Notes under the pieces: model-generated
Database searches by the model: none
What the model was told of the DNA's origin: nothing
Seen by the model: only the letters and a program-made list of their open reading frames with translations
Translations under genes and position numbers: made by a program
Shown here: piece by piece, positions 528 through 39,828 of the stretch
How the letters are laid out: each line of letters starts with the position of its first letter
How positions within the stretch are numbered: position 1 is the stretch's first letter
Assembly (NCBI RefSeq): GCF_002252665.1
Contig: NZ_NQKZ01000006.1
Coordinates: 1 to 64,000, forward strand
DNA: 64,000 nucleotides
DNA from: Synechococcus sp. 8F6
Lineage (GTDB): Bacteria > Cyanobacteriota > Cyanobacteriia > PCC-6307 > Cyanobiaceae
Direction of reading: 5' to 3'

Positions 528-1046
528 ATGTTCGACGCCTTCACCAAGGTTGTAGCCCAGGCTGATGCCCGTGGCGAATTCATCAACGCCGGTCAAATCG
601 ACGCGCTTGCAGCGATGGTTTCCGAGAGCAACAAGCGGATGGATGCTGTGAACCGCATCACCTCCAATGCATCCAAGATCGTCACCAATGCGGCCCGCGA
701 TCTTTTTGAAGCTCAGCCGGCGCTAACAGCTCCTGGGGGGAACGCCTACACCAGCCGCCGCATGGCTGCGTGCCTACGCGATATGGACATCATCCTCCGT
801 TACATCACCTACGCCATTTTCAACGGCGATGCATCCGTGCTGGAAGACCGCTGCCTCAACGGCCTGCGGGAGACCTACCTGGCCCTCGGCGTTCCTGGCG
901 CTTCGGTTGCTGAAGGTGTTCGCAAGATGAAAGACGCCGCCATTGCAATTGCCAACGACCGTAACGGCATCACCCAGGGAGATTGCTCAGCTCTAATCAG
1001 CGAAATCGGGACCTACTTCGACCGCGCTGCAGCAGCCGTCGGCTGA
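528..1046 (+). CDS. cpcB: Phycocyanin beta subunit
   Basis: This is the 172-residue beta chain of C- or R-phycocyanin, the rod phycobiliprotein next to the phycobilisome core in the thylakoid-bound antenna. The length equals the family norm. Bilin-binding Cys82 (in [10 protein letters not shown]) and Cys153 (in GDCSAL) are both present, and Asn72, the residue methylated in this family, is conserved. An AGGAG sits upstream of the ATG. It is followed after 42 bases by cpcA, forming the cpcBA operon. Sequence alone does not say whether Cys153 or the alpha Cys84 carries phycocyanobilin or phycoerythrobilin, so C-PC versus R-PC (rpcB) is left open. Confidence 0.97.
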
Positions 1047-1088
1047 TCAGCTCACTAAAAAGCCAAACCAACTTATTTCCCCTTTCCA

Positions 1089-1577
1089 ATGAAGACTCCC
1101 CTTACCGAAGCCGTCGCAACCGCTGATTCCCAGGGACGGTTCCTCTCAAACACTGAGCTCAACTCAGCTTTTGGTCGCTTTGACCGCGCCAAAAATGCTC
1201 TCGCAGCTGCTAAGGGCCTAACAGCCAACGCAGACAACTTGGTCAACGGCGCTGCCCAGGCCGTTTACAACAAGTTCCCCTACACCACCCAGATGCAGGG
1301 TGCAAACTATGCCGCTGATGCCCGTGGTAAGGCTAAGTGCTCCCGCGACATCGGCTACTACCTCCGCATGGTCACCTACTGCCTCGTGGCTGGTGGCACC
1401 GGACCCATGGATGAGTACCTGATTGCCGGTATTGATGAAATCAATCGCGCTTTTGAGCTCTCCCCCTCCTGGTATGTTGAAGCTCTTAGCTACATCAAAG
1501 CCAACCATGGCCTTACAGGCGAAGCAGCAACAGAAGCAAACAATTACCTCGATTACGCAATCAACGCGCTTGTTTGA
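1089..1577 (+). CDS. cpcA: Phycocyanin alpha subunit
   Basis: This is the 162-residue alpha chain that pairs with the preceding beta chain to form the PC monomer, later (alpha-beta)6 hexamers in the rod. It starts MKTPLTEAV as in nearly all phycocyanins. The bilin-binding Cys84 is in the stretch [19 protein letters not shown], and the C-terminus YLDYAINAL is typical. The matching lyase pair CpcE/CpcF is encoded about 20 kb away at 21707-23175. The operon ends at a hairpin terminator just downstream. Whether Cys84 carries PCB, PEB or PUB cannot be read from this sequence alone. Confidence 0.97.
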
Positions 1578-1599: not shown

Positions 1600-1636
1600 T
1601 TAATAGCCTCCCCTAAGCAGGGGGGGCTATTTTTAT
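1600..1636 (+). terminator. Rho-independent terminator after cpcBA
   Basis: An inverted repeat (AATAGCCTCCCCT, loop AAGC, AGGGGGGCTATT, one bulged base) is followed by a T-rich tract. It lies 23 bases after the cpcA stop and separates the highly expressed cpcBA unit from the weaker-looking cassette downstream. Confidence 0.85.
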
Positions 1637-1774: not shown

Positions 1775-2191
1775 ATGTCACCCAATGAAACTTTTAGCAT
1801 TAAAGACCTAATAAACCAAGCTGGAGGAGAACAGGAGATTCAGTACGGTACCGACGAGGCTCGCTTGCGCATAGACCTAAGAATTGACGACATTGGGATT
1901 TGGAAGGCCTATCACAAGAAACATGCTGGCAACCAAAATCTTTTACTTGCCTGCGAAAGGAACAGCGGAAAACTGTCAGACACTAATCTGACCTGGGTTG
2001 TCGGAGCAGCAATCCGTTCAGCCGTGGCTGAAGGAACGTCCGGAGCAAGGGATCTACTTAAAAACCTCGGTGTGTCAGAAGAGCTAGTGGATCTGGCATC
2101 TGAACACTGTCCAGAACTTGGCGGGACAGCAGTCTGGGCATTCCATTTGGAACGACATGGCTGGCTAACCGCTACTCCTGTAGAATGGTGA
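1775..2191 (+). CDS. Unknown protein between cpcBA and the phycobiliprotein-like gene
   Basis: A 138-residue soluble protein that I do not recognise. The chosen start is ATG at 1775 (MSPNETFSIK); an in-frame TTG at 1718 would add 19 residues. No membrane segment, signal peptide or cofactor motif is visible. The second half looks helical (SAVAEGTSGARDLLKNLGV, then SEELVDLASEHCPELGG) and ends with aromatic residues. Its stop overlaps the ATG of the next gene by 7 bases, so the two are probably cotranslated. Base composition is poorer in G+C than cpcBA. The position inside the phycobilisome cluster suggests a link with antenna assembly, but that is inference. Confidence 0.6.
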   Translation: MSPNETFSIKDLINQAGGEQEIQYGTDEARLRIDLRIDDIGIWKAYHKKHAGNQNLLLACERNSGKLSDTNLTWVVGAAIRSAVAEGTSGARDLLKNLGVSEELVDLASEHCPELGGTAVWAFHLERHGWLTATPVEW

Positions 2192-2784
2192 AACTGACTA
2201 GGGAAGCTCAACAGAAAATGGAGATCAGCCAACTTGCCAAGGATGCAAAAGTATGCGGCATAAGCAATCGCAACAGCATCCCCGAAGCGGCAAGGGTGTT
2301 GATAGCTAAAGCCGATACTTCAAAACGGTTCCTCAGCGCAGAGGAATCAAAAGCAATATGTAACTATTGCAATACTTCAGAGGATGCCATTGGGCTACTA
2401 GTAGCGGGGTCAAACCAGGTAATTGATGAAGCAAGGCGAGATTTACTAACCCAACAACCACAGCTCACAATGCCTGGCGGAGGACTATTCCCGGAGCCAC
2501 GAGCAGAAGCCTGCTGGCACGATTGCCAACAGTTTTTGCGGGTGATAATTTATGGGGTTGCATGCGATTGCACAGATATAGCAGACATAGAGGGCATGAT
2601 TGCATTGCGTCATTTATACAAGAAAATGGAAATACCTATCACTGCGATGATGTATGTCCTAGCTCGGATGCGTGCACTAACCACACGAGTCCTAGAAACT
2701 TCAGGGCATGCTCATGAGGCAACCTGCCTCAACAAAGCTTTTGATAACCTGACCAACGCTCTGCTACCAACCGAGCAAAGCTAG
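2185..2784 (+). CDS. Divergent phycobiliprotein-like protein (allophycocyanin-like, AplA-type candidate)
   Basis: This 199-residue protein has a phycobiliprotein globin fold signature but is not a standard subunit. Residues about 32-195 align by eye with beta-type chains: AKADTSKRFLSAEES resembles the N-terminal helices, QPQLTMPGGGLFPEPRAEAC the segment before the chromophore cysteine, and Cys110 falls where Cys82 sits. The C-terminal second cysteine (153-type) is not evident. Five further cysteines cluster at 59-62 and 114-129 (for example YCN and ACDC). An N-terminal extension of about 30 residues is unusual; a second ATG at 2218 would remove 11 of them. It overlaps the preceding gene and precedes a pentapeptide-repeat gene. 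It could bind a bilin and act as a sensor or minor antenna protein (inference). Confidence 0.65.
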   Translation: MVKLTREAQQKMEISQLAKDAKVCGISNRNSIPEAARVLIAKADTSKRFLSAEESKAICNYCNTSEDAIGLLVAGSNQVIDEARRDLLTQQPQLTMPGGGLFPEPRAEACWHDCQQFLRVIIYGVACDCTDIADIEGMIALRHLYKKMEIPITAMMYVLARMRALTTRVLETSGHAHEATCLNKAFDNLTNALLPTEQS

Positions 2785-2840
2785 CGCTAGCACGGAACGT
2801 AAATGTGTCTAATTACTAGAAAATCAAATCCTGCCTGAAA

Positions 2841-3572
2841 ATGTACCAAAAGCATCAAGCATTTTTGTTACCGGAAGATCCAAGCCAATGGAGTGCTCCT
2901 GAGAAATGCGAACCAACTGCGACGCAGCATCAACACGTAGACGCGCGCGGTGCAAGCTGGAACAAACGTGTTCTACAACCACTTGACCTGCGTCAGGCAA
3001 ACCTTTGTCGAATGGATATAAGGGGAACAGACCTCAGCGCCTGCCTACTAGAAGGATGCAATTTAACACTTGCTCGATATGACAAAAAGACTCGTGTACC
3101 CGCTGGCTTTGATCTTGAAAAGTCAGGAGCGGTAGGCCCTGGTGCAGCTCTTAATGGGGCTTTTTTGAATGGTGCAGATCTCAGGGGTATGGACCTACGT
3201 AGCACCAACTTCATGGGTGCGTACCTAAGCGGATGTGACCTCAGTGGTGCAGTATTAGACGGAGCACGCTTTGTAGGAGCAGACTTAAGATTTGCAAAAA
3301 TGCAAGGTAGTCGTTGCATAGGCGCACGCTTTAACGGTAGTCAGTTGCAACAGGCAGACTTTAGAGCCGCTAATTTGGCAGATGCAATCCTAGATGAGGC
3401 TGAAAGTATCAAGGGCGCTGACTTCAGTCAAGCCACGGGTTTGAACAAGATGCAGCTAGCCAACCTCCTAACTCGCTCTCATATCGAACTTGATTGCTGG
3501 AACCCACTCACTAGGCAAGCGACTCGGACGACACTGGAGTCGCTGCTGGAATCGACAACAAAACCCGCATAG
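2841..3572 (+). CDS. Pentapeptide-repeat protein in the phycobilisome cluster
   Basis: This 243-residue protein has a central array of A(D/N)LxG-type pentapeptides. Residues about 50-75 hold a first block (LRQANLCRMDIRGTDLSACL), a non-repeat insertion follows at about 80-105, then a longer block at about 106-200 (NGADLRGMDLRSTNF, SGCDLSGAVLDGARFVGADL). Such repeats fold into a right-handed quadrilateral beta helix used for protein binding. No membrane or signal segment is seen. The last 45 residues are helical and may cap the helix. It lies 56 bases after the phycobiliprotein-like gene and 116 bases before the cpe linkers. The fold is clear; the role is unknown. Confidence 0.8.
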   Translation: MYQKHQAFLLPEDPSQWSAPEKCEPTATQHQHVDARGASWNKRVLQPLDLRQANLCRMDIRGTDLSACLLEGCNLTLARYDKKTRVPAGFDLEKSGAVGPGAALNGAFLNGADLRGMDLRSTNFMGAYLSGCDLSGAVLDGARFVGADLRFAKMQGSRCIGARFNGSQLQQADFRAANLADAILDEAESIKGADFSQATGLNKMQLANLLTRSHIELDCWNPLTRQATRTTLESLLESTTKPA

Positions 3573-3688: not shown

Positions 3689-4573
3689 ATGCCGTTTGGT
3701 CCAGCCTCGATCCTGGGTGTGGAGAGCTTCTCCCAAGAGTGCGAAGCACCACGTGAGCTAGTGCCAAGAGACGACGACCAAGCGAAGGAGTCAGTAATCC
3801 GGGCTGTCTACAGACAGGTTCTTGGAAATGCCTACGTGATGGAGAGCGAACGACAAATTGTTGCAGAATCGCAGTTCAAGCTAGGGGAAATCAGCGTTAG
3901 AGAACTGGTAAGACGTATCGCAAAAAGCGATCTTTATAGCACGCGCTTTTTTGACTCATGCGCGCGCTACCGCTATATCGAACTAGCTTTTCGCCACCTA
4001 CTCGGACGTGCTCCAGCAGATTTTGAAGAAATGCGGGGGCATGCCGAAAGACTAGATACAAGTGGTTACGAAGCAGACATCGACAGCTTCTTAGATTCTG
4101 ACGAATATCAGAACAACTTTGGTGAGTGGACAGTGCCATATCAACGTGGGTGGAAAACAGAATCCTGTGCAACGCTTCAAGAGTTCACCTGGTCATTCCA
4201 GTTGCTACGTGGCAACAGCAGCAGCAGCCTAAAAGGCAACTTGGCTGGAATCAGGAGCCGTCTTGGCGGTGCTGCCTATCAGAACCGCCCCCTTCCTGTG
4301 GTGGCTCCCTCATCACAAGATACCCAAGGCTGGAGCTACCGCCCAGCTGCCAACCTGACAGATCCCGTTACACGGATTGGTGTACTCGCAGGCGAAACAG
4401 GCAAAGTCTATCGGGTAGAAGTCACCGGCTATCGGGCCAATAACGTGCGACCCACATCACGCTATAGGAAAGCAAACAGGGTATTCTTCGTTCCCTTCAA
4501 TAAGCTTTCAGAGCAATATCAACTTATCCACCGCGAGGGGGGCAAGATCGCAAGCATCACACCATTAGACTGA
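3689..4573 (+). CDS. cpeC: Phycoerythrin-associated rod linker CpeC
   Basis: This 294-residue rod linker stacks PE hexamers in the rod. The N-terminus MPFGPASILGV is the hallmark start of CpeC linkers. A phycobilisome linker domain covers about residues 32-150 (VIRAVYRQVLGNAYVMESER, FRHLLGRAP, EADIDSFLDSDEYQ, TVPYQRGW), followed by a spacer and a C-terminal CpcD-like domain at about 235-294 (YRVEVTGYRANN ... NRVFFVPFNKLSEQYQLIHR, EGGKIASIT). It opens a linker-lyase-activator series in the order of the cpeCDESTR operon known from filamentous cyanobacteria. The stop codon is followed after 4 bases by the TTG of the next linker. Confidence 0.85.
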   Translation: MPFGPASILGVESFSQECEAPRELVPRDDDQAKESVIRAVYRQVLGNAYVMESERQIVAESQFKLGEISVRELVRRIAKSDLYSTRFFDSCARYRYIELAFRHLLGRAPADFEEMRGHAERLDTSGYEADIDSFLDSDEYQNNFGEWTVPYQRGWKTESCATLQEFTWSFQLLRGNSSSSLKGNLAGIRSRLGGAAYQNRPLPVVAPSSQDTQGWSYRPAANLTDPVTRIGVLAGETGKVYRVEVTGYRANNVRPTSRYRKANRVFFVPFNKLSEQYQLIHREGGKIASITPLD

Positions 4574-7424: not shown

Positions 7425-7967
7425 ATGCAGCTGGAATCTTTTGTAGCTCGTAGCCTAGGCCGCTGGCGATCAATGAGAAGCGGTCATTCTCTTGCTTTTC
7501 AGCAATTTGAGGATCTTCGCAGTTCAGTATTGATTGAACCAGTTGGACTCCAAGATCCGTTGGTTCTTCAGTTAATTAGAGAGTGCAAAATACACGACGC
7601 CGACCCCCTTCTGCCATTCCGAATGGAATGGAAAGCAGAAAGTGACTGGGAGCCAGAGGGGCCCAGTGAAGTATCAGCAGGATCATGCATCCTCGTTCCA
7701 ATCCCACTTGATAATCAAAAAGGAATCTTACTGCGAAGTGCTGGATATGCAGAGGCGGAGCAAGCAGTATCAAACTATGCCTTTTTAGAAGATGATACTT
7801 TTATACTCACTACGCAATATGGTCAATCGATTGCAGAGGAAAGAATCTGGTTCGTATCTGAGAATGTTCGCTGCCGCTCATCAGTGCTGCGAACCTCGGC
7901 CGGCTCAGGAATACTGCAAACATCCTTCGCATCTGAAATCAGACGGTTAGATTCCTTCAGCCAATAG
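7425..7967 (+). CDS. S/U-type bilin lyase (CpeS/CpeU/CpcS family)
   Basis: This 180-residue protein is of the lipocalin-like CpeS/CpcS fold that carries a bilin and attaches it to phycobiliprotein cysteines, mostly the Cys82-type sites. Family marks are the start FVARSLGRWRSMRSGHSLAF, the middle GILLRSAGYAEAE and the late ERIWFVSENVRCRSSVLRTS. ATG at 7425 is preferred over the adjacent TTG at 7422. It occupies the CpeS place in a cpeC-D-E-S-T-R-like order, but a second family member lies at 15103. Which of the two is CpeS and which CpeU cannot be settled from sequence alone; the SLGRWRSMRSG motif makes me lean to CpeU. Confidence 0.85.
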   Translation: MQLESFVARSLGRWRSMRSGHSLAFQQFEDLRSSVLIEPVGLQDPLVLQLIRECKIHDADPLLPFRMEWKAESDWEPEGPSEVSAGSCILVPIPLDNQKGILLRSAGYAEAEQAVSNYAFLEDDTFILTTQYGQSIAEERIWFVSENVRCRSSVLRTSAGSGILQTSFASEIRRLDSFSQ

Positions 7968-10684: not shown

Positions 10685-11113
10685 TCAGCCCTGAAGCTCG
10701 AACACGCCATCAGGAGCACGCCCCTGTTTGAGCAATTCCCAGTTAATCGACTGAAGAAAAGCGGCGGTGTTCAGAGTCTCCACCACATCGACCCCCCAGT
10801 CGCCCCTCTGCAGCAACGCTCCAGAGGCTCCTTGATCGTCCTTACGACCACCCAAGGCCAAAAGCTGGCACGCATCATCTGTAGCGCCTGTAGAGCAGCG
10901 CAGCTGACGCCAGGCTTGGAGCATGGCCTTGGCCAGATCAATGGGCAGCAGATCCGCTTCCACCTGAACCAACCAGTGGGGGTGGCTCAGTGCCTGAACA
11001 TGGAAATCGGTGGATAGGTGCGCGACAAGCCCCGCCGCCAGATCGGCGGAATTGAGGGCTTTCAGGCTTTCGGAAGCCACCTGAAGGTTGTGGGAGAGCA
11101 AAAAGCGTGTCAT
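10685..11113 (-). CDS. Unknown protein in the phycoerythrin cluster
   Basis: A 142-residue soluble protein of unknown function, starting MTRFLLSHNLQVASESLK. It contains ALSHPHWLVQVEADLLPIDL in the middle and a C-terminal segment GDWGVDVVETLNTAAFLQSI. It has no signal peptide, membrane segment or recognised motif. It is divergently oriented from cpeF with 72 bases between the starts, and it converges on the small CpcD-like gene with a gap of 6 bases. The position suggests a phycobilisome-related job, but nothing in the sequence proves it. Confidence 0.6.
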   Translation of the reverse strand: MTRFLLSHNLQVASESLKALNSADLAAGLVAHLSTDFHVQALSHPHWLVQVEADLLPIDLAKAMLQAWRQLRCSTGATDDACQLLALGGRKDDQGASGALLQRGDWGVDVVETLNTAAFLQSINWELLKQGRAPDGVFELQG

Positions 11114-12813: not shown

Positions 12814-13323
<510 letters not shown>

Positions 13324-13368
13324 TTAATTGAGTTGTAGTGGTTTAAAAAAGCAATCTCTTCGGATGAA

Positions 13369-14253
<885 letters not shown>

Positions 14254-15102: not shown

Positions 15103-17191
<2,089 letters not shown>

Positions 17192-17202: not shown

Positions 17203-18378
17203 TCAAAGCAGACCTATGGCATGAAGAGGCCCACTTCCACTGATCAGCTCCACTAGAAAAGCGGAGAATCCGACCATAGCTAAGCGGCCATTCCACACTT
17301 CTGAGCTGTTGTTCCAGCCCCAAGCCCACTTGTCTTGGGGGTAGAGCTTCACAGTGCTGGGCAAAGCCGCCGCCTGGTCAAGATTCACTTCGGGTCCATC
17401 CAGGGCCTGCTGGACGAGTCGCGCAAGCCCCTGGATGAACGCAGGGTTGGTGTCAAGCGCCGGCACACGCCGAAAGTTGGTGATGCCCGATTCGAAAGCC
17501 AGCTTGCGATACTCGATGTCGATCTCTTCGAGGGTCTCGATGTGCTCGCTCACAAAACTGATCGGCACAACTACCAGATCCTTCACACCCTGCCGTCCTA
17601 GCTCCTCCAATGCCTCGTCGGTGTAGGGCTGGAGCCACTCCACAGGGCCCACCCGGCTCTGGTAAGCGAGGGTGAAAGAGTTGCTGTGGCCCAATGTGGC
17701 CTCCAACTTCTCAATGATCAACCGGGCGCAGGTTTCGATCTCCCCTTGGTAGGGATCGCCCGCTTCCTCCACGTAGCTTTTAGGAACACCGTGGGCACTG
17801 AAGAACACGTGGGCGGTATCTGGATCTGGGCAGGCCTGGATCTCGCGGGCGATCAGCCCGGCCATGGCGTCGATATAGCCCAGGTCATCGTGGTAGCTGC
17901 GGATGCATCGAATCGGCAACGCTGCGAAGACAGGATCAGCCTGACGAAGACGCTGAAGCTCCCTGAAACTGGAACCGCTGGTGCTAATCGAGAAATGGGG
18001 ATAAAGAGGCAGCACCACCACCTCATCCACAGCGTCGGCTTTAATATCTGCCACCGCCGATTCGGTGAAGGGGTGCCAGTAGCGCATCGCCACGTAGCTG
18101 GTGGCCTCGATCCCAAGCAGACGCAGGGCACTCTGCAGCTCCCGCGCCTGCTGCTCAGTGATTCGCCGCAGTGGCGAGCCCCCGCCGATAGAGCGATAAG
18201 CCTCCTGCGACTTTCTCGCCCGCAGACTGCTGATCAGCCAAGCCAGAGGTTTCTGCAGAGCTGGGTTGGGTAGCCGGATGATCTCGGGGTCCGAGAACAG
18301 GTTGTAGAGAAAAGGGCCGACATCCTGGATGCGCTCCGGACCCCCGAGGTTCAGCAGGAGAACACCTACCTTGGACAT
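17203..18378 (-). CDS. hemH: Ferrochelatase with C-terminal chlorophyll-binding helix
   Basis: A 391-residue protein that inserts Fe2+ into protoporphyrin IX to make heme, the source of biliverdin here. It starts [19 protein letters not shown] (ATG at 18378; an upstream in-frame ATG adds only 14 unrelated residues). The catalytic region has [18 protein letters not shown] and [16 protein letters not shown]. Residues about 355-391 form the extra HLIP-like helix ([20 protein letters not shown]) found in photosynthetic ferrochelatases; ExxNGRxAMxGF is the chlorophyll-binding motif. Fusion and length are normal for cyanobacteria. Confidence 0.95.
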
Positions 18379-18671
18379 GGCTTGGCGATCATGAGGCAGC
18401 ACATCACCATAGGCCAACAAACGCTTGCAGCTGCACTCGCTCGATTGATTAAGAAATATTTAGGGTCGGCCTTGGCAGCGAAGTGGATTAAGGCACACCC
18501 CAGCCCCAAGGATCTTTCGCCAGCGGATAATGGCCTGAGAGCCCCATAAACTTTTCGCCTCGGACCTCTGATCACGAAACAACGATTCTGGAAAACCCGA
18601 CTACCGAACTAAAGACAAAGGAAGATTTAGACATCCACGCCAAAGCCGCAGCTGATCGCCAATGGAACCTC

Positions 18672-19448
18672 ATGCGCGCCAGCTTTGATGGCGACTGGCA
18701 AGGAACAACCACCTGGTACGGCCGCAACAGCGACGGCATGAATATGAAGCAGGGCACCGTCAACCCGGAGGCCTCGCATTACGCCATCCGCTTCTCGGAT
18801 GCGCATACGGGTGAATGGCATGGAACAGGCCTTCGATTCGCACCGGGTGGAGAACGCCGCTTCCCCCTATATCGGCACAACTACAACCTCAGCCACAACT
18901 GCTGGCATTTTCCGCAGACTGCAGGTCAGTCGAGCCTGCAAATGGCAGGCAGTTGCACGCGTGCTGGGCATGAAGTGAACTTCTTCAGCGGCCGCAGTCG
19001 TTCGATGCTGGTTGCGCTTTACCAGCAACAACCGGATGGAGAGATGCTGCTGGACTCAATCGCCGCCACACCCTTCCGCTGCCAACGCACTAGTCCTGAC
19101 CCGGAACGCGCTCAGTTTCAATCGTTGGAGGCGGTATTCGAGACCGTCTTTGGCTGGCAAGGAGTGGAATCAGTGATCAGACCCGGATTCAGTTCTAGAA
19201 TTGCGATTTCAAAACAGCGGTTGGCGCCATTCTGTAGCGAATGGTTTATTAAGAATGAAGCAAATGGGCTATTTGAAGATAATTTAATCTGCAGCCTTCC
19301 TGAGAGTTTGCCAAAGCAATCATTTGACCTCCACTTCGGCTGCGTACTAGATCGTCAAAACTTTGTGCATCTGACAATGGAGTTCGATGCCAATTACAAT
19401 CTACTGGCCTGGATAGAACGTCGCTATCAGCCCACCATGCATGGATGA
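18672..19448 (+). CDS. Lipocalin-like hypothetical (DUF3598-like)
   Basis: A protein of at least 258 residues with repeated short beta-rich segments (FDGDWQGTTTWYGRNSDGMN, EWHGTGLRFAPGG, FSGRSRSMLVALYQQQPDGE), resembling DUF3598 and thus the barrel fold shared with CpeS lyases. The frame continues upstream to 18531 with family-like sequence (DIHAKAAADRQWNLMRASF) but without ATG, GTG or TTG. Either ATG 18672 is the start or a rare start (CTG 18588 or ATT 18585) is used. The last 22 bases overlap the convergent epimerase gene. A bilin-related role is only inferred from fold and location. Confidence 0.65.
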   Translation: MRASFDGDWQGTTTWYGRNSDGMNMKQGTVNPEASHYAIRFSDAHTGEWHGTGLRFAPGGERRFPLYRHNYNLSHNCWHFPQTAGQSSLQMAGSCTRAGHEVNFFSGRSRSMLVALYQQQPDGEMLLDSIAATPFRCQRTSPDPERAQFQSLEAVFETVFGWQGVESVIRPGFSSRIAISKQRLAPFCSEWFIKNEANGLFEDNLICSLPESLPKQSFDLHFGCVLDRQNFVHLTMEFDANYNLLAWIERRYQPTMHG

Positions 19449-23663: not shown

Positions 23664-25246
23664 GCCGCCGGCGTTGGCCAGGCCTCTTCCGGCACCCGCT
23701 CCCGGAAACGATCCACCAGGGCCTGGATCACCGCCTCGATGGCCAGGCTGTCGGTCACCAGCTCCACCGCATCGTCGGCCTGCCGCAGCGGGGCCACCTC
23801 CCGGCTGGAATCGAGCTGGTCGCGCTCGGCGATCTGGGCTTCGAGCTCGGCCAGGGGAGGCACCGCAAAGCCCCGCTGCTCCAGATCCAGGGCACGACGA
23901 CGGGCTCGCTCGGCCACCGTGGCCGTCAGAAAGACCTTGAGTTCCGCATCGGGGAACACGGCCGTACCGATGTCCCGGCCCTCGGCCACCAGCCCCCCCT
24001 GGCGCCCCATCGCCTGCTGCTGGGCGGTGAGCGCCTGGCGCACGCAACCATGGGCTGCCACCACCGATACCTGAGCGGTGACCTCAGGGCTGCGAATGGC
24101 CGCGGTGACGTCGTGACCGTTGATGCTCACCTGCTGCTCGCCACCGGAACCGGAGCGCAGCTGCAGATTGAGATCCACCAGCAGCGGCTCCACCGCTGCC
24201 GCATCAGCCGGGTCGGCGCCCTGGTGCTGCACCCACCAGGTGAGGGCCCGGTACATCGCGCCGGTATCGAGGTAGATCAACCCCAGCCGCTTGGCGAAGG
24301 CCCGGGTGACGGTGCTCTTGCCCGCCCCCGCCGGACCATCAATGGCAACGATCGGCTGGCGAGACATCAGAAACACGTGATCGATCAGGCGGCTCGGGCC
24401 GCAGTGCACCGCCGCGGCCAGCAGAGCCATGCCCTGTACCTGCGGCAACGGCTCCAGGCTATGGGGAGCCACCAACTCCACATAATCCACCAGCAGCCCC
24501 GCCGCCTCCAACTGGCGAGACAAGCGGGCAGTCACCTCCCCGGCCTGACACTGCCCGGCCGCCACCTCGTCGGCGATAGCGGACAAGCTGGCGGGCAGGG
24601 CCGCAGCCTGCTGACGCTGGGGGGGGGAGAGGCGACGGTTGCGGGAGCTGCAGGCCAGCCCGTCGGCCTCCCGCACGGTGGCGCAGCCCTGAATCCGCAG
24701 CGGTAGGCCCAGATCCGCCACCACCCGGCGCAGGATCACCAGCTGCTGCCAGTCCTTCTCGCCAAGCCACAACCGGTCCGGTCGCACCAGGGTCAGCAGC
24801 CGCACCACCACGGTGGCCACCCCCTCGAAATGCTCCGGACGGCTGCGGCCACACAACACCTGGCGCAGGGCCAGGGGCGGGCTGATCCGGGTCAAGCCAG
24901 CCTCTCCCTGGGGATAAACCTCAGCCACGCTCGGCGCAAATAGGGCTGTGGCGCCGGCTGCAGCGGCCAACGCGATATCGGAGCTGAGGTCGCGCGGATA
25001 GGCGTCGAGATCTTCGCCAAGGCCGAACTGGAGCGGATTGACAAACACGCTCACCAGCACGGGGGAGATGGCACCACCGCAAGGCTCCGCCGCCCGCCGG
25101 ATCAGCTGCTGGTGCCCCGCGTGCAGGGCCCCCATCGTGGGAACGAACTGCACCGATCCGGGCTGCTCATGCCGCCAGGCGCGCAAATCGTCTCGGGTGT
25201 GGAGCAACTGCACGGGCAGACAGCGGGCCGGCAACACAAAGCCCAT
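23660..25246 (-). CDS. panC/cmk: Bifunctional pantothenate synthetase / cytidylate kinase
   Basis: A 528-residue fusion known from cyanobacteria. Residues about 12-285 are PanC (VPTMGALHAGHQQLIRRA, NPLQFGLGEDLDAYPRDL, GEKDWQQLVIL, ADGLACSSRNRRLS), condensing pantoate with beta-alanine. From about 294 (SRQPIVAIDGPAGAGKST) it is cytidylate kinase, with Walker A in GPAGAGKS and YLDTGAMYRALTWWV. The ATG at 25246 lies inside a hairpin; GTG at 25213 (residue 12, VQLLHTRDDLRAW) matches the usual PanC length better. Confidence 0.92.
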   Translation of the reverse strand: MGFVLPARCLPVQLLHTRDDLRAWRHEQPGSVQFVPTMGALHAGHQQLIRRAAEPCGGAISPVLVSVFVNPLQFGLGEDLDAYPRDLSSDIALAAAAGATALFAPSVAEVYPQGEAGLTRISPPLALRQVLCGRSRPEHFEGVATVVVRLLTLVRPDRLWLGEKDWQQLVILRRVVADLGLPLRIQGCATVREADGLACSSRNRRLSPPQRQQAAALPASLSAIADEVAAGQCQAGEVTARLSRQLEAAGLLVDYVELVAPHSLEPLPQVQGMALLAAAVHCGPSRLIDHVFLMSRQPIVAIDGPAGAGKSTVTRAFAKRLGLIYLDTGAMYRALTWWVQHQGADPADAAAVEPLLVDLNLQLRSGSGGEQQVSINGHDVTAAIRSPEVTAQVSVVAAHGCVRQALTAQQQAMGRQGGLVAEGRDIGTAVFPDAELKVFLTATVAERARRRALDLEQRGFAVPPLAELEAQIAERDQLDSSREVAPLRQADDAVELVTDSLAIEAVIQALVDRFRERVPEEAWPTPAA

Positions 25247-25267
25247 CCGCCAGGTTGGCGGATGGGC
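25241..25267 (-). terminator. Perfect 11-bp hairpin between rlpA and panC-cmk
   Basis: GCCCATCCGCC, loop AGGTT, GGCGGATGGGC. It lies 28 bases after the rlpA stop in the direction of transcription and spans the first ATG of panC-cmk. The following TTTGTGTT is only a weak T-tract. It could end rlpA transcription or mask the panC start. Confidence 0.6.
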
Positions 25268-25294
25268 TGGAGGAGAGCTGCCGAGCAGCTCAGA

Positions 25295-25846
25295 TCACTG
25301 GAGCACTTCCAGTCGCACTGGAGCAAGTCCACTGGAGACCAGACCCACTTCCTGGGCAGCGCCATGGCCCAGGTCGATCACCCGATTGCCCACAAAAGGC
25401 CCTCGATCGTTGATGCGCACCACCGTGTTGCGCCCGTTGTTGAGGTTGGTGACCCGAACCCGGGTGCCGAAGGGCAAGGTGCGATGGGCCGCGGTGAGGG
25501 TGCCAGGGCGATAGGTTTCGCCGTTGGCGGTGCGGTTGCCAAAGAAGCCAGGGCCATACCAGCTGGCGGTGCCCTGGCTCACCTGCACAACCCGGGGTGC
25601 TGGCTTCGGGGCCGGAGCAATAGGGGTGGAGGGAGCCTGCTTGATCAGGGTCTCCGGAGGGACGGATTCGCTGTCGGCCTCACGAATGGCGACGTCATTG
25701 CTGGGTCCTTGGACCTCTGAGCTCGGCGTAGCCACGGCAACGGCATCGTTGGTGGTGGCTGCGCGGCTGGATTCGGCGATGGCGGGAACCAAGGCACTAC
25801 CAGAGAGAAGCAGGGCAAGGGCCCCAAGGGAGAAAGTGCGACGCAT
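25295..25846 (-). CDS. rlpA: RlpA-like septal/cell-wall protein
   Basis: A 183-residue secreted protein. Residues 1-25 form a signal peptide (MRRTFSLGALALLLSGSALV, cleavage near AIAES). A Thr/Ser/Pro-rich linker to about residue 90 leads to a double-psi beta-barrel (GTASWYGPGFFGNRTANGET, AAHRTLPFGTRVRVTNLNNG, VVRINDRGPFVGNRVIDLG), the RlpA catalytic fold of lytic transglycosylases. No SPOR domain is present, as in many cyanobacterial members. ATG at 25846 is chosen over an upstream in-frame start. Confidence 0.9.
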   Translation of the reverse strand: MRRTFSLGALALLLSGSALVPAIAESSRAATTNDAVAVATPSSEVQGPSNDVAIREADSESVPPETLIKQAPSTPIAPAPKPAPRVVQVSQGTASWYGPGFFGNRTANGETYRPGTLTAAHRTLPFGTRVRVTNLNNGRNTVVRINDRGPFVGNRVIDLGHGAAQEVGLVSSGLAPVRLEVLQ

Positions 25847-26267
25847 AACAAACGAAACCCGCTGCAGGAGCAGCAATCACCAGCCGAAAGCGAAAGCTTC
25901 ACGGCCAATCGATGATTCGTCAGCGTTGGATTCGAACTCAAACTGAATGGAGTTGAGATGCGAATTCGCGTTCGGAGTTCCTATCGGGAATTGACAACGA
26001 CGCAAAGTTAACGGCCGTCGCGGGCGGTTTCGGTCAAAAACGACACCCCAAGAACCGATCAGAATTTGTCATCAAATCCCCGAGCGCCGGCCCTAACAGG
26101 GCTGAGCCACCGTCAGCAAGCCACCCCGGCATCAGCGACCCAAATGACGGTCATCAGCGCAGCTAATAGCCGTATGTGCCAATCTGCCAATCGTCCATCG
26201 ACTGGGCGTGACCGGTCGCCCGCTGAGGGCGGACGGCTGGCGTTGGAGGATCAGGAGACAGCACCTG
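25847..26267. promoter_or_regulatory. Divergent region between rlpA and purM
   Basis: 421 bases without a supported gene. A TTGACA hexamer lies at 25991-25996 but no good -10 follows at the usual distance. A GATTCGAACTC at 25932 resembles a tRNA T-arm but no tRNA can be folded around it. AGGAG at 26252-26256 may serve purM. Confidence 0.35.
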
Positions 26268-27323
26268 ATGGACTTCGACGGGATGGACTACCGCACTGCC
26301 GGCGTGGACGTGGTCGCAGGCCGGGCGTTTGTGGATCGGATCCGCGCCAGCGTGGAAGCCACCCATCGCCCAGAGGTCGTGGGTGGTCTTGGCGGGTTCG
26401 GTGGCTTCTGCCGACTGCCGGCAGGCCTGCGGGAGCCGCTGCTGGTGGCGGGCACCGACGGGGTCGGCACCAAGCTCGAGCTGGCCCAAGCCCACGGCCG
26501 TCACCACGACGTGGGCATCGACCTGGTGGCGATGTGCGTCAACGACGTGATCACCAGTGGGGCAGAACCCCTGTTCTTCCTCGACTACATCGCCACCGGC
26601 AAACTCAGCCCTGAGGCCATGGCCGAGGTGGTGCAAGGCATCGCTGAGGGCTGCCGGCAGAGCGGCTGCGCCCTCCTGGGCGGGGAAACCGCAGAGATGC
26701 CCGGCTTCTATGGTCCAGGCCGCTACGACCTGGCGGGCTTCTGCGTGGCCGTGGTGGAGGCCAGCGCAGTGATCGATGGCCGCGCCGTGGTTGCCGGCGA
26801 CCGCATCGTGGCGGTGGCGAGCAGTGGTGTGCACAGCAATGGATTCAGCCTGGTGCGTCGGATCCTCGACACCCAGGCGGTGGACGAACGCACCCCGTTG
26901 CCAGGTAGCGATCAGCCCCTGATTCAAGCCCTGCTCACCCCCACCCGCCTCTACGGAGCCCTTGTGAAAGCCCTCCTGACCAACGGCGTGCCGATCCACG
27001 GCATGGCCCACATCACCGGGGGCGGCCTGCCGGAAAACCTGCCCCGCTGCCTCCCTGCTGGCGTGCATGGCGTGATCGACCCCAACAGCTGGCAGCGCCC
27101 CCCCCTGTTCAGCTGGCTGCAGGAGGCCGGCGAGGTGCCGGAGGCGGATCTCTGGAACACCTTCAATCTGGGGGTGGGCTTCTGCCTGGTGCTGCCTGCC
27201 TCCGCCGTATCCGAGGCCCTCGCCGTCTGCCAGCAAGCCGGCTACACCGCCTGGGAACTGGGTGAGGTGGCCAGCGGCAGTGCTGGCGCCCAACCCCTGG
27301 CGGGCTTGCCTTACGGAGATTGA
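26268..27323 (+). CDS. purM: Phosphoribosylformylglycinamidine cyclo-ligase (AIR synthetase)
   Basis: A 351-residue enzyme of purine synthesis that closes the imidazole ring of FGAM to give AIR using ATP. Family motifs: [94 protein letters not shown] and [19 protein letters not shown] at 26268 ([10 protein letters not shown]) is chosen with AGGAG 11 bases upstream; the frame extends 20 codons further without similarity. Confidence 0.96.
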
Positions 27324-27479
27324 GCGGCGCCCAAGCCGCTGCTGGCAAATTGCTTCACGTTGGAGGCCAAGGGCCGGCCAGGTCAACGCTGCTGCCTAGG
27401 GTACTGACCTCGAACCGTCACCATCCCTGATATGCAGGTTGGTGGCCGAGCAGAACGAAGACAAATCAGGAGAGGCGTC

Positions 27480-28235
27480 ATGACGCAATCAGTAGGTTCA
27501 CCATTTGGTTCACCGCTTGGTTCACCAGGTTCACCACAACGCCTAACCGGACAACGTTTAACCGGATCTGGCCCTGCCGGCCCGGGAGTTTCAAGCGGGC
27601 TAGGCCAGGGATCCCTGGGCTCCGGCCAGCGCCTCACCCGCCGCCGCAGTTCCGCTGGCCCCGTTCCGCCCAGCCGCCCCCTGCGACCGCGCGATCCAGT
27701 GCCTGCCCCCCAGCGCGGAGGCATACGGCCCACCTTCCTCACCCTGAGGGATCACGGCAAGGTGTACGTGGCCGACCTGCCCCGGCTCTCCGACGGCCAA
27801 CTGGCCCACGTGGCCAAAGAGGCGCGTGAGGTGCTCGAAAGCCTCGGTCGCCGGCTGGAGGAGCTCGATGCCCAGCCCTTCCTCTCCCAGGCCGAGCAGG
27901 ACACCCGCATCCGGGCCTCCACCAAGCGGGAAGTGACCGAGCGCTTCATTCGCTCGATCGAGGACGAGCTGCAGCTCCGGCGCAACAACCCGGCCCTGCG
28001 GGCCGCCGCCGGCGAGTCCCTGGCCCGGGCATTTCTGGAGCTGGCCCGCCATCAGCTGCCCGGCGCCACCTTCGACTCCCTGCTGCAGGAGGCGCTCGCC
28101 GCCTGTGGACCGGAAGCGGCTGCGGCCGAAGCCGAATCCCAAGGCGACCCAGGCGCCAATCCTGTGGTGCCGCTGGTGCGCCGCCAGGCGATGCCCGTGG
28201 TGCTCACCCTCGATCCAACCGCCCAAGCCTGCTAA
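27480..28235 (+). CDS. Hypothetical protein with a repetitive GS/P-rich N-terminus
   Basis: A 251-residue protein. The first 85 residues are disordered, starting with a small repeat (SPFGSPLGSPGSP, coded by tandem GGTTCACC units at about 27495-27536) and continuing Arg/Pro-rich. Residues about 95-215 are mostly helical (LSDGQLAHVAKEAREVLESL, TRIRASTKREVTERFIRSIE, SLARAFLELARHQLPGATF). ATG at 27480 has AGGAGAGG just upstream. No known domain is recognised. The stop overlaps the convergent aldo/keto reductase gene by 4 bases. Confidence 0.7.
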   Translation: MTQSVGSPFGSPLGSPGSPQRLTGQRLTGSGPAGPGVSSGLGQGSLGSGQRLTRRRSSAGPVPPSRPLRPRDPVPAPQRGGIRPTFLTLRDHGKVYVADLPRLSDGQLAHVAKEAREVLESLGRRLEELDAQPFLSQAEQDTRIRASTKREVTERFIRSIEDELQLRRNNPALRAAAGESLARAFLELARHQLPGATFDSLLQEALAACGPEAAAAEAESQGDPGANPVVPLVRRQAMPVVLTLDPTAQAC

Positions 28236-29227
28236 GCGCTCTGGAAGGGGTTGGCTGGCATGCCGACCTCCAGCCCCAGGGCCAGGTCGTCGAGGCGTTC
28301 ACGCTCCTCGGCAGACAGCGACCAGGTGAGCGCAGCTGCCGCATCGTCCACCTGGTCGGGGCGGCGCAGGCCGGGGATCGGCATGGCGCCGTGGGCCCGA
28401 CACCAGTTGAGGGCCACGGCAGACAAGCTGGCAGCATGGCTGGCGGCGATTCGGCCCATTTCTGCCTGGAGCTCCACCAGGGCCGGGCCGAGACGGCGAA
28501 ACAGGGCGCCCCGGGGGCCCATCGGCCAGCTCTGGGCCTGCAGCGGCCGGGCCAACAACCCCAAGGCCAGGGGGCTATAGGCGATCAGGCGGATGCCCAG
28601 CTCGCGGCACAGCTCGGCCACGCCGCCGGGCCGGATCGGATCAGGGGCCAGCAACGACAGCTGCACCTGCAGGCTGCTCAGCGCCACGCCCCGCTCGGCG
28701 AGCCGGCGGTGCACAGCCCGCAGCCGCAGCGGACCCATGTTGGACACCCCCAGGGCTCCCGCCTCACCCTGCTCCACCAGATCGGCCAAGCCCTCGAGCA
28801 GGGGGGCCTCCTGCCAGGGCGCATAGCGGGCGGTGCTCCAGTGGAGCTGCACCAGGTCGATGCGACCGCCAAGGCGCTGCTTCGAGGCGGCGAAACCCCG
28901 CTGGTAGCCGCGCCGCCCGAGCCGCCAGGGGAAGGGGGCCAACTTGGTGGCCAGGCACAGCCTGTCCCGCTGCTGGGGAGGCAGGGCGGCGCTGAAGCGG
29001 CCCAACAAAGCCTCGCTGCGACCGTTGAAACGGCCAGTGCCGTAGGAGTCGGCGGTGTCGAACACCTGCAGACCGCAGGCCACGGCCCGCTGGAATGTGG
29101 CCTCCAGAACGGGATCCTGGCTGGGGTCGTATCCCCAGAGCAACTGGTTCCCCCAGGCCCAGGTGCCCACACCAATCCCGGGCGCCGAGCCCTCCGCTCC
29201 GCCAACATCAGCCCACGGATGCGCCAT
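28232..29227 (-). CDS. Aldo/keto reductase
   Basis: A 331-residue NADPH-dependent oxidoreductase with the TIM-barrel family marks: GIGVGTWAWGNQ at the start, QVFDTADSYGTGRF (catalytic Asp and Tyr), ATKLAPFPWR (Lys), VQLHWSTARY (His) and the late nucleotide-site region IPGLRRPDQVDDAAAAL. ATG at 29227 (MAHPWADVGG) is used; the frame continues upstream without similarity. The substrate is unknown; the Kv-beta-like class is common in plants and cyanobacteria. Confidence 0.9.
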   Translation of the reverse strand: MAHPWADVGGAEGSAPGIGVGTWAWGNQLLWGYDPSQDPVLEATFQRAVACGLQVFDTADSYGTGRFNGRSEALLGRFSAALPPQQRDRLCLATKLAPFPWRLGRRGYQRGFAASKQRLGGRIDLVQLHWSTARYAPWQEAPLLEGLADLVEQGEAGALGVSNMGPLRLRAVHRRLAERGVALSSLQVQLSLLAPDPIRPGGVAELCRELGIRLIAYSPLALGLLARPLQAQSWPMGPRGALFRRLGPALVELQAEMGRIAASHAASLSAVALNWCRAHGAMPIPGLRRPDQVDDAAAALTWSLSAEERERLDDLALGLEVGMPANPFQSA

Positions 29228-29260
29228 GGTGGACTGCAGTGCCTGCGGTGCTGCCCCACG

Positions 29261-29428
29261 ATGCCTGATGTTCCCAACCCTGGCACCACCAACCCAGGCG
29301 CCACCGACAACCGGGCCCCGGCCACAAGCGATCCAGCACCCGAGCCCATTCTTTGCCAACACTGCGGGCGCACCGCCAGCAACGGCATCAGCTGCCAGGG
29401 CAGCTGCGTGGCTGACTCGGGCTACTGA
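29261..29428 (+). CDS. Small cysteine-rich protein (55 residues)
   Basis: A 55-residue protein, MPDVPNPGTTNPGATDN at the start and a compact cysteine-rich end: ILCQHCGRTASNGISCQGSC plus VADSGY. Four cysteines (C32, C35, C45, C49) in CxxC and CxxxC spacing suggest metal binding. The N-terminal 30 residues are Pro/Ala/Thr-rich. It is divergent from the reductase. The pattern looks like a conserved picocyanobacterial small protein, from memory rather than a search. Confidence 0.6.
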   Translation: MPDVPNPGTTNPGATDNRAPATSDPAPEPILCQHCGRTASNGISCQGSCVADSGY

Positions 29429-29444
29429 GCCACCCCCTGGGCTG

Positions 29445-29966
29445 ATGCCTCTCCTGCTGCCGATTCACCGCCTGCCGGCCCGCCTGGCCGTGGTGCTGGT
29501 CCTGAGCCTGGACGGCGCCGTGCAGGCGGAAGGGTTCGGGCGCTGGGACACCAAACTGCGCGATTGCTCCCTGCTCCAAGGGCGGATGGAGTTGCCCCTG
29601 CAGGCCCAACAGCAAACCTGCCAACGGCTGCGGCTCGAGCAAAACATGGAGGGTCTGCTGAGCGTGCGGCTGATCCAACCGTCGGCCCACCAGCGCTTCG
29701 GCAGCCAGACCCTGGTCTTCGGTGGTGTGCTGGCCGAAGGGCAGCAGACGATGCGCTGCAACACCAATGGCGAATGCCAACCCCGCTGGCCGATCCGCCT
29801 GGAGGTGGCCACCGTGGCCAGCAGCCTGGCCGATGACCAAGGGGTGGCACCGACCCTGCCGACGGCCCAACTGGCCCGGGGGAGCTGCCTGCTGGAGCGC
29901 CGCGCCCTGCAGTGTCAGGCCCGCGACCAGAACGGCCACTTCTGGGAGGCCAAGGCCCGGCACTGA
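29445..29966 (+). CDS. Secreted hypothetical protein
   Basis: A 173-residue protein with a signal peptide at residues 1-26 (PARLAVVLVLSLDGAVQA). The mature part starts EGFGRWDTKLRDCSLLQGRM and contains six cysteines (for example QQTCQRLRLEQ, MRCNTNGECQPRW, GSCLLERRALQC), which could form disulfides in the periplasm. No known domain is recognised. The ATG at 29445 fits the signal peptide; it lies 16 bases after the small Cys-rich gene, so the two may be cotranscribed. Confidence 0.7.
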   Translation: MPLLLPIHRLPARLAVVLVLSLDGAVQAEGFGRWDTKLRDCSLLQGRMELPLQAQQQTCQRLRLEQNMEGLLSVRLIQPSAHQRFGSQTLVFGGVLAEGQQTMRCNTNGECQPRWPIRLEVATVASSLADDQGVAPTLPTAQLARGSCLLERRALQCQARDQNGHFWEAKARH

Positions 29967-29969
29967 TCC

Positions 29970-30007
29970 GTCGTGCTGGGTGTGCGCGCATGAACACCCA
30001 GCACGAC
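29970..30007 (+). terminator. 14-bp perfect hairpin after the secreted hypothetical
   Basis: GTCGTGCTGGGTGT, a 10-base loop, ACACCCAGCACGAC. It starts 3 bases after the gene stop. The T-tract behind it is poor, so it may be a terminator or an mRNA-stabilising structure. Confidence 0.6.
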
Positions 30008-30073
30008 AACGACCGTTTCTAGGCAGAAATACTCAGTATCTTTATCTTGTCGTGATGAGCGACGGGAGACCTG

Positions 30074-30108
30074 TCCCTGGCGGAGTCGAACACGCTAGGG
30101 ATTTTTTT
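30074..30108 (+). terminator. Second terminator hairpin with T7 tract; possible end of a small RNA
   Basis: TCCCTGGCG, a 10-base loop, CGCTAGGGA (one G-U pair), followed by seven T. No gene ends nearby except the one already followed by the hairpin at 29970. A short transcript starting between 30010 and 30050 is possible; a palindrome ATACT-C-AGTAT lies at 30029-30039. Confidence 0.7.
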
Positions 30109-30296
30109 GTGACTAATTCTTGCGCCTGCTCACGTCAGACCCGCTGTCCTGACTTGGATTCACACGGTGGAGGAGTTCGACCCTTCATCGCTTGAGGAAG
30201 CGGGCGGAAGGTTGGTTCCCGTCGCCGCCGCCCTGTTCCTCCCTCTTGCCTAGAACCTCATTCCAATCGGCACTGGGGCGGTGTTCGCCGGATCTC
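30109..30296. other. Gene-free stretch
   Basis: About 190 bases with no supported gene and no hairpin or repeat worth noting. It separates the possible small RNA from the small secreted protein gene on the minus strand. Confidence 0.4.
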
Positions 30297-30428
30297 CTAC
30301 TTCCTGCTGCCTTCCAGATCCGTGTCGGATCCGTTCTGGTGGCCGTTCAGGTGCTTCTCGCAAGCGTTGACGGTTGTGCCGATCAGCAGGGTCGCAGCGG
30401 TGAGAGCAAGGAGCAGCAGGCGCTTCAT
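30297..30428 (-). CDS. Very small secreted protein (43 residues)
   Basis: The frame encodes a clear signal sequence, MKRLLLLALTAATLLIGTTV, with NACEKHLNGHQNGSDTDLEG following. After cleavage near residue 22 only about 20 polar residues with one cysteine would remain. ATG at 30428. No strong ribosome-binding site is visible. The typical K-R-L6 signal pattern supports a real small protein, but the evidence is thin. Confidence 0.45.
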   Translation of the reverse strand: MKRLLLLALTAATLLIGTTVNACEKHLNGHQNGSDTDLEGSRK

Positions 30429-30543
30429 CGGTTCTGGGGGAGTGCCCTCAGGATATGGGCGGTTGTGCTGGGGTGCCTGGAGTGTTGCAGGGCGCTCACC
30501 GATCAAGCCAGCAAAAAATGACCAGCTCTCGCGGTCAATAAAG

Positions 30544-30614
30544 AGGCGGCACCCAGATTCGAACTGGGGGTAAAGGATTTGCAATCCTCTGCCTTACCAC
30601 TTGGCCATGCCGCC
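30544..30614 (-). tRNA. tRNA-Cys (GCA)
   Basis: On the minus strand the sequence begins GGCGGCATGGCCAAGTGGTA and folds into a full cloverleaf. The anticodon loop TTGCAAA gives GCA, the T-arm has GTTCGAATC, the acceptor stem pairs GGCGGCA with TGCCGCC, and the discriminator base is U, as expected for tRNA-Cys. CCA is not encoded. Confidence 0.95.
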
Positions 30615-30658
30615 GCACAGGGAGCAAACTCCCTGCAGCGGATCGTATCAGCCATGGC

Positions 30659-31909
30659 ATGTCCTCCCGTCTGCTGGTTCTGAGCAACGGCCACGGGGAG
30701 GATCTGATCGCCCAGCGCGTGCTGCAGGCCCTGCGGCAGCGGCGGCCCGATCTGATCGTGCGGGTGCTGCCCCTGGTCGGGCTGGGGGAGGCCTTCGCCG
30801 CCGACGAAGCCGCTGGCCATCTGCAGCGGCTCGGCCCCCAGCTGCAGCTCCCCAGCGGCGGCTTCAGCAACCAGAGCCTGCGGGGCCTGGCTCGCGACCT
30901 GGCCGCCGGCCTGCCCCTGCTGAGCTGGCGGCAGCTACGCCTGGTGCGCGCCTGGGCCCGCCAGGGCGATCCGGTGCTGGCCGTCGGCGACCTGCTGCCC
31001 CTGCTGCTGGCCTGGAGCAGCGGCGGCCGTTTCGGCTTCATCGGCACCCCCAAGAGCGACTGCACCTGGGCCTCGCCAGGGCCACCCGGCTGGCGCCCCT
31101 CGCCCCTGGCGGATGCCTACCACCGCTGCAAAGGCAGCGAATGGGATCCGTGGGAATGGGCCGTGATGGGCAGCCGGCGCTGCCGGCTCGTGGCCGTGCG
31201 CGACCGGCTCACCGCCCGGGGGCTGCGCCGCCATGGGGTGGCAGCCCTGGCTCCAGGAAACCCAATGATGGATGGCTTCCCCCACGCCCCTCTGCCGGCC
31301 TGGCTGCAGAGCCAACGGCGCCTGATCCTGCTGGCCGGCAGCCGCCTGCCCGAAGCCCTCGGCAATGCCCGCCGGCTGCTGGGCTGCCTGGCGCTGTGGC
31401 AGCCGTTGCAGCACACCGTGGTGCTGGTGGCCTCAGGCTCGATCCCCAGCGCGGAAGCCTGGGCCCAGCTCCTAGAGAGTGGGGGCTTCACCGCGATGCC
31501 CCTGAGCGCGGAAGCGGCCGCCATCGGCGCCAGCGCCAGCTGGGGAAGGGGCCGCTGGCAGCTGCTGCTGGGCCAGCACAGCTTCAGCCGCTGGGCGAGC
31601 TGGGCCGAACTGGGCCTGGCTACCGCCGGCACCGCCACCGAACAACTGGCGGGGCTGGGGGTGCCGTCGCTGTCGCTGCCGGGCCCAGGTCCGCAGTTCA
31701 AGGCGGGCTTTGCCCGCCGCCAGAGCCGGCTGCTCGGCGGTGCCGTGCAGCCCTGCCAGAGCCCGGAGCAACTGGTCCGGCGGCTGCAGGAGTTGCTCGA
31801 GGATCCCCACGAACGGGCGCGGCGCGCAGCCTGGGGCCGCCGCCGCATGGGGCCAGCCGGCGGCAGCGCTCGGCTGGCTGCGTTGGTGGAGCAGCGCCTG
31901 CTGGGATGA
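30659..31909 (+). CDS. Lipid-A-disaccharide synthase-related protein (LpxB-like, TIGR03492 type)
   Basis: A 416-residue glycosyltransferase-like protein found in cyanobacteria. It starts SSRLLVLSNGHGEDLIAQRV, has FSNQSLRGLARDLAAGLPLL, GDLLPLLLAWSSG and FIGTPKSDCTW, and a C-terminal half with LGLATAGTATEQLAGLGVPS followed by LSLPGPGPQFKAGFARRQ, the nucleotide-sugar side. It resembles LpxB in outline but is a separate family; the substrate is unknown. The ATG is 45 bases from the tRNA-Cys 5' end on the opposite strand. Confidence 0.85.
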   Translation: MSSRLLVLSNGHGEDLIAQRVLQALRQRRPDLIVRVLPLVGLGEAFAADEAAGHLQRLGPQLQLPSGGFSNQSLRGLARDLAAGLPLLSWRQLRLVRAWARQGDPVLAVGDLLPLLLAWSSGGRFGFIGTPKSDCTWASPGPPGWRPSPLADAYHRCKGSEWDPWEWAVMGSRRCRLVAVRDRLTARGLRRHGVAALAPGNPMMDGFPHAPLPAWLQSQRRLILLAGSRLPEALGNARRLLGCLALWQPLQHTVVLVASGSIPSAEAWAQLLESGGFTAMPLSAEAAAIGASASWGRGRWQLLLGQHSFSRWASWAELGLATAGTATEQLAGLGVPSLSLPGPGPQFKAGFARRQSRLLGGAVQPCQSPEQLVRRLQELLEDPHERARRAAWGRRRMGPAGGSARLAALVEQRLLG

Positions 31910-31937
31910 TGCGGCCATCCTCTGCCTTTGCGCTGCC

Positions 31938-32195: not shown

Positions 32196-32229
32196 ATCGT
32201 CGAAGACTGACGCGCCGCCCAGGCGTGGC

Positions 32230-32907: not shown

Positions 32908-32975
32908 GCGGAGGGAACAAGTGCGCCCCCATGCTGGCAAGCCACGGCCCCCCGGCTGGCGGCACAATGGGGGGG

Positions 32976-33527: not shown

Positions 33528-33546
33528 CCCTTCCACCAGCCCAGCC

Positions 33547-36617: not shown

Positions 36618-36622
36618 ATCCG

Positions 36623-39802: not shown

Positions 39803-39828
39803 GCAGCGTCGATCAACCCCCATAAAGG

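Follow-up and report, generated by a model that had tools for sequence, protein, structure and literature searches.

The stretch from position 1,775 to position 3,572 of the window (the whole 64,000 nucleotides of Synechococcus sp. 8F6 analysed here) is, on orthology and gene order, almost certainly the segment of a type IIB phycobilisome rod cluster that carries unk4, aplA and unk5, the host being a Cyanobium-like picocyanobacterium. The novelty is the distribution of AplA and Unk4 and not the locus itself; that aplA tracks phycoerythrin (PE) beyond the picocyanobacteria is new here. Neither distribution was found in a literature search that did not cover the 2004 AplA paper, and hence we claim no priority for the link between AplA and PE. 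The explanation that we consider best as a whole, a type IIB unk4-aplA-unk5 segment whose products serve as accessory proteins of PE, has a probability of roughly 0.55.

The names unk4, aplA and unk5 are those of Six et al. 2007 (PMC2246261). In that survey, every marine Synechococcus with PE has unk4 upstream of aplA, except for WH7805, which is without aplA; aplA encodes an allophycocyanin-like product and lies upstream of cpcGII, and unk5, with its pentapeptide repeats, is generally found downstream of cpcGII. The cpcA-unk4 junction has also been reported, as part of the type IIB arrangement (Larsson 2014). With names given in 2007 and the junction in print since 2014, the three genes cannot be the undescribed system for which a sequence-only reading of this DNA had proposed them. 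Its account of the layout was accurate: all three open reading frames lie on one strand between the cpcBA terminator and cpeC (Table 1), and unk4 and aplA overlap by seven bases if aplA starts at ATG 2185. A start at GTG 2188 would leave an overlap of four bases (GTGA). Among relatives no arrangement is more frequent than this one, which 18 of 41 unk4-aplA pairs have, and the actual start of aplA may therefore be GTG 2188. Translational coupling of the two genes is likely, judging from these four-base overlaps. Our literature search found no published function for unk4 or unk5, and no biochemistry of the products of unk4, aplA or unk5.

Table 1. Coordinates of unk4, aplA, unk5 and surrounding features in the window
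Feature	Position	Strand	Remarks
cpcB-cpcA, phycocyanin subunits	528-1577	+	directly upstream; type IIB cpcA-unk4 junction
strong terminator-like hairpin, end of cpcBA unit, upstream of unk4	1602-1631	+	13-pair stem, 4-base loop, T-rich tail
unk4	1775-2191	+	138 aa; intact ORF
aplA	2185-2784	+	199 aa; intact ORF; start possibly GTG 2188
unk5	2841-3572	+	243 aa; intact ORF; pentapeptide-repeat (right-handed beta-helix) protein
cpeC, PE rod linker	3689-4573	+	directly downstream of unk5
cpeS	7425-7967
cpeB-cpeA	12814-13929	-	sole PE of the genome
pebA-pebB, phycoerythrobilin (PEB) synthesis	15687-17191	+
hemH	17203-18420	-	behind pebAB

In the type IIB arrangement, cpcBA is found upstream of aplA and the ferrochelatase gene lies on the opposite strand behind pebBA (Sánchez-Baracaldo 2019, PMC6363710). 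The 8F6 cluster fits it as described in 2014 and 2019: cpcBA stands directly ahead of unk4-aplA, hemH occupies the opposite strand behind pebAB, and there is a single PE, with no mpeBA and no second CpeB/MpeB match in the genome. Unlike the type IIB cluster, 8F6 has no transposases between unk5 and cpeC. It also has cpeS, whereas the 2019 text gives type IIB "only cpeT" and not cpeSTR (PMC6363710), a descriptor that is absent from the 2014 definition (Larsson). Two of the type IIB strains of the 2019 paper, Vulcanococcus limneticus LL (L087) and 1G10 (L120), carry cpeS as well. Since the paper's own members have the gene, we do not take "only cpeT" as defining the type.

The genome of WH7803 has the order unk4-aplA-linker-unk5-cpeC, and its proteins are 43% (unk4), 38% (aplA) and 58% (unk5) identical to those of 8F6. 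Unk4 is thus the orthologue of the protein encoded immediately before aplA in WH7803 and in other strains with PE, and Unk5 that of the pentapeptide protein of the cpcGII-cpeC interval, which in WH7803 lies directly ahead of cpeC. The closest named genome found was that of Cyanobium usitatum str. Tous, with an unk4 product 88% identical. As in the marine Synechococcus described in 2007, 8F6 has unk4 directly upstream of aplA, a pentapeptide unk5 ahead of cpeC, and intact frames. Unlike most marine strains, which have a (rod-core) linker gene (cpcG) between aplA and unk5, it lacks that gene at this place. The order cpcBA-unk4-aplA-unk5 recurs in C. usitatum, CS-1331, ATX 6A2, V. limneticus LL and others. 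In 1G10, BSA11S and their relatives the unk4-aplA-unk5 run is kept although the rest of the cluster is rearranged: a linker gene precedes unk4, and hemH lies between unk5 and cpeC.

Orthologues of the three genes were found in dozens of genomes. The sequence-only reading would have been abandoned if the genes were not conserved together elsewhere, or decayed in close relatives; what we found instead was wide co-occurrence and purifying selection. Its idea of one cassette does not hold, as each gene has its own distribution. For example, aplA is missing from Synechococcus lacustris and CV12-2-Slac-r, where the order is unk4-linker-unk5, and from another genome (G081), which has unk4-unk5; Prochlorococcus lacks both aplA and unk5, and its unk4 precedes a linker gene, cpeS and cpeT. 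We took a census of 300 genomes of the family, comprising 90 with a strong CpeB match, 78 with Prochlorococcus-like CpeB only and 132 without CpeB. Of the strong-CpeB genomes, 78 have unk4 and 81 have aplA. The Prochlorococcus-like group had unk4 in 18 of the 78 and aplA in a single one, which is incomplete (G278), while genomes without CpeB rarely had either gene (unk4 in 5 and aplA in 3 of the 132). The census and the gene orders show that the three genes are not inseparable. Two side observations arose here. A contig labelled Flavobacteriales (L104) carries unk4 and a cpeY-like gene, and is almost certainly a mis-binned Synechococcus contig. A group of genomes of ~1.4-2.5 Mb (G008, contig L059, and related g9 genomes), possibly sponge symbionts, mostly match CpeB twice and have, next to cpeB, an aplA of divergent sequence; unk4 was not detectable in them.

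The AplA protein has a Pfam phycobiliprotein domain (PF00502, 98.6 bits) and an intact bilin cysteine, in agreement with the earlier description of a divergent, chromophore-capable phycobiliprotein-like protein. Its best NCBIfam match is ApcA, at 65.8 bits against a cut-off of 270, and ApcB scores 54.4 against 228, so that neither equivalog cut-off for a light-harvesting subunit is reached. All AplA sequences fall in one clade of the tree, apart from every antenna subunit of the 8F6 genome (support 0.75). The structural model (pLDDT 96.5) has the phycobiliprotein fold from about residue 27, with VIA Z of 15-16 against solved phycobiliproteins; the rmsd is about 2.0-2.2 Å for the core, and 2.1-4.1 Å when the N-terminal helices are included. 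Because residue 1 of the solved phycobiliproteins falls on residue 27 of the model, the first ~26 residues are an N-terminal extension, which is also present in all aligned AplA orthologues from outside the family. For the Apl class, Montgomery and colleagues reportedly described, in 2004, some 28 additional N-terminal residues in comparison with allophycocyanin. An altered alpha-beta contact region is also a trait of the class, as are, according to Six et al. 2007 (PMC2246261), a covalently bound bilin and absence from the phycobilisome. The 8F6 protein is thus similar to the Apl class in having a phycobiliprotein domain nearest to the allophycocyanin models, an extension of ~26-28 residues, a retained bilin cysteine, and a gene in the PE/phycobilisome region.

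By alignment with CpcA and CpcB the bilin cysteine is Cys110, and both Cys110 and Asp113 are invariant. The motif at residues 110-114 (2512-2526) reads ACWHDC in 8F6 and ACWRDC in nearly all relatives. Unlike the Apl class, 8F6 has a histidine for the arginine of CxRD; among the aligned sequences, histidine at this position is found in 8F6 only and serine in two others (L092 and L096), all the rest having arginine. A second cysteine, Cys114, sets picocyanobacterial AplA apart from other Apl members: CWRDC is invariant in its cysteine throughout the picocyanobacterial sequences (L069-L125), and most others (L156-L175) read CWRDF or CWRDL. We had considered the second cysteine as a general feature of AplA, but it is limited to the picocyanobacteria plus one further genome (G335). 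Lying one helical turn from Cys110, Cys114 could touch the same bilin.

With a profile of picocyanobacterial AplA (A4), orthologues, mostly full length, could be found in many other families. Among 164 genomes of the class, with the picocyanobacterial family excluded, AplA was present in 42 of the 44 with CpeB and in 10 of the 120 without it (16 families with AplA; Fisher p 5e-27, not corrected for phylogeny). Three of the ten exceptions, all from one family (f25), are weak matches without the N-terminal part, and in-frame stops occur within the matches of the exceptions G596, G610 and G667. In a sample of the phylum that partly overlaps the class sample, five genomes have AplA without CpeB (G335, G513, G515, G528 and, as a weak match, G466), and PebB was not found in any of the five. 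AplA is therefore not strictly dependent on PEB or PE, and the genomes that keep it without PE genes may use phycocyanobilin. Conversely, type II strains make PE without AplA.

The neighbours of aplA outside the picocyanobacteria are also of the PE type, often pebAB, cpeC or cpeBA, and in some loci cpeS/T or cpeYZ. In three genomes aplA is directly downstream of pebAB (L156, L157 and L175), in four it either neighbours cpeC or is flanked by unk5 on one side and cpe linker-lyase genes on the other (L159, L167, L168 and L171), and in two it adjoins a cpeY-like gene (L160 and L173). Relatives of Unk5, 43-47% identical, are encoded near aplA in 6 of the 20 non-picocyanobacterial loci, and share, partly or fully, the C-terminal signature ELD-x-WN--TR--TR-SLE. 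Half of the loci (L158, L159, L162, L163, L165-L168, L171 and L173; 10 of 20) have a gene for a HEAT-repeat protein of ~220 aa near aplA. These proteins are 50-68% identical to the copy in L162, with weak similarity to NblB, and may be a dedicated bilin lyase of AplA; no counterpart was found at picocyanobacterial loci.

Unk5 matches the pentapeptide repeats of PF00805 at 86 bits and conserves the C-terminal signature given above. Unk4 has no significant Pfam or NCBIfam family and no sequence relative among solved structures. Its model (pLDDT 89.9) is of the alpha/beta type; a known fold was sought, but no PDB or viral model had a Foldseek E below 0.4 and the best VIA match in the PDB reached Z 2.9, which does not by itself prove a new fold. 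A search of 60 genomes from outside the picocyanobacteria, 25 of them with AplA, gave no Unk4; it had no positive control in that set, and divergent forms could have escaped it.

The mechanism that we propose makes all three proteins accessory factors of PE; its particular assignments are tentative, at rather less than even odds. AplA would be a soluble protein of phycobiliprotein fold holding a bilin at Cys110, probably PEB in view of the linkage to pebAB. It would act outside the antenna, as a carrier of bilin or as a sensor of bilin or light status, so that the supply of bilin keeps pace with PE assembly. Unk5 would be a beta-helix scaffold in phycobilisome-bearing cells, docking AplA or the PE linkers. 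Unk4 would be a small, PE-specific maturation or assembly factor, active even without a phycobilisome. Prochlorococcus has no phycobilisomes, and the retention of unk4 in some of its lineages suggests that Unk4 works on PE itself. The earlier suggestion of a link to the rods is plausible. The weak points of this mechanism are the few genomes that have AplA without PE genes and the type II strains that have PE without AplA. Also against it stand the histidine of 8F6 at the arginine position and the lack of unk4 in 60 of the 78 Prochlorococcus-like and 12 of the 90 strong-CpeB genomes. In a more far-reaching version, AplA would accompany PE almost universally among phycobilisome-bearing cyanobacteria, as a dedicated PEB-holding protein through which synthesis by pebAB is coupled to the assembly of PE. 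Unk5 would then be the docking scaffold, and Unk4 a PE factor of the picocyanobacteria, with a fold not yet described, on which the phycobilisome-free PE of Prochlorococcus draws as well. In this full form we regard the idea as unlikely.

The names of these genes date from 2007 (that of aplA from earlier), and their distribution now gives each a sharp prediction. Unk4, being kept in some Prochlorococcus without rods, should act on PE itself; AplA and Unk5 should need a PE-carrying phycobilisome; and the aplA-pebAB link points to phycoerythrobilin. The tie between AplA and PE makes the 20-year-old question of the role of AplA testable by simple knock-outs and bilin binding.

The main rival to the accessory mechanism is that AplA senses the colour or intensity of light and is not a biogenesis factor, with Unk4 and Unk5 as PE proteins unrelated to it that merely happen to be adjacent. 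Six et al. 2007 (PMC2246261, after Montgomery 2004) place Apl in a photosensor class of unknown function that is not linked to the phycobilisome, and the separate distributions of the three genes fit this reading. By analogy with two-Cys photosensors, the invariant second cysteine, one helical turn past Cys110, could allow a similar thiol chemistry, but nearly all AplA from outside the picocyanobacteria have Phe or Leu in its place. There is also no conserved output domain and no adjacent signalling gene; what recurs beside aplA is pebAB and genes for lyases and linkers. We consider a photosensor possible, if on the unlikely side.

An antenna role for AplA seems improbable. AplA could be a minor antenna or terminal-emitter-like subunit, or a rod-docked quencher, as the earlier reading suggested, with Unk5 as its docking protein. 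It has the phycobiliprotein fold with the bilin Cys and Asp, and apart from the one incomplete genome it is absent from the PE-bearing Prochlorococcus-like genomes, which have no phycobilisomes. Against this, earlier work found no link between AplA and the phycobilisome (Six 2007, PMC2246261, after Montgomery 2004), its score with the ApcA model is 66 bits against 270, and the extension of ~26 residues lies outside the matches to solved subunits, the matches that include the N-terminal helices being mostly of higher rmsd than those of the core only.

The lower GC of the three genes relative to cpcBA, which the sequence-only reading had remarked on, is real but not peculiar to them. They have a GC of 0.48-0.50, compared to 0.56 for cpcBA and 0.68 for the flank; the whole PE region is low, with 0.47 for cpeS and cpeT and 0.52 for cpeC. 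On these similar values we rejected a foreign, horizontally acquired cassette marked by its GC. The phycobilisome rod genes measured between 1 and 14000 range from 0.47 to 0.58, against 0.68 for the flank at 24000-40000, and this low rod-gene GC fits the proposal that PE genes were transferred horizontally into brackish picocyanobacteria (Larsson 2014). The low GC, the proposed transfer and the Arg-to-His change near the bilin of AplA could also be read as signs that the genes are decaying remnants of a transferred PE cluster, with no current role in 8F6. This is highly improbable: the three frames are intact, the order is conserved in C. usitatum, CS-1331 and others, and the dN/dS of 0.07-0.37 against three relatives reflects purifying selection on all three genes, which largely refutes decay. 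Pseudogenes were likewise rejected. An in-frame TAG was flagged in two relatives, G045 and G183; that of G045 (L042) sits at the C-terminus, just past the last aligned residues, and does not break the gene. We also rejected a phage origin, as patterns from Unk4 and AplA gave no relative in viral contigs.

Two further genes of the region deserve mention. A 142-aa DUF2656 protein is encoded at 10685-11113 (- strand), between the cpeY-like and cpeZ-like genes, and is conserved in related clusters; by size and place only, it is probably the unk12/orf140 of earlier papers. Between hemH and ho1, at 18672-19448 (+ strand), lies the gene for a 258-aa protein that matches neither Pfam nor NCBIfam; a piece of it is also found beside hemH in the V. 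limneticus contig (L046).
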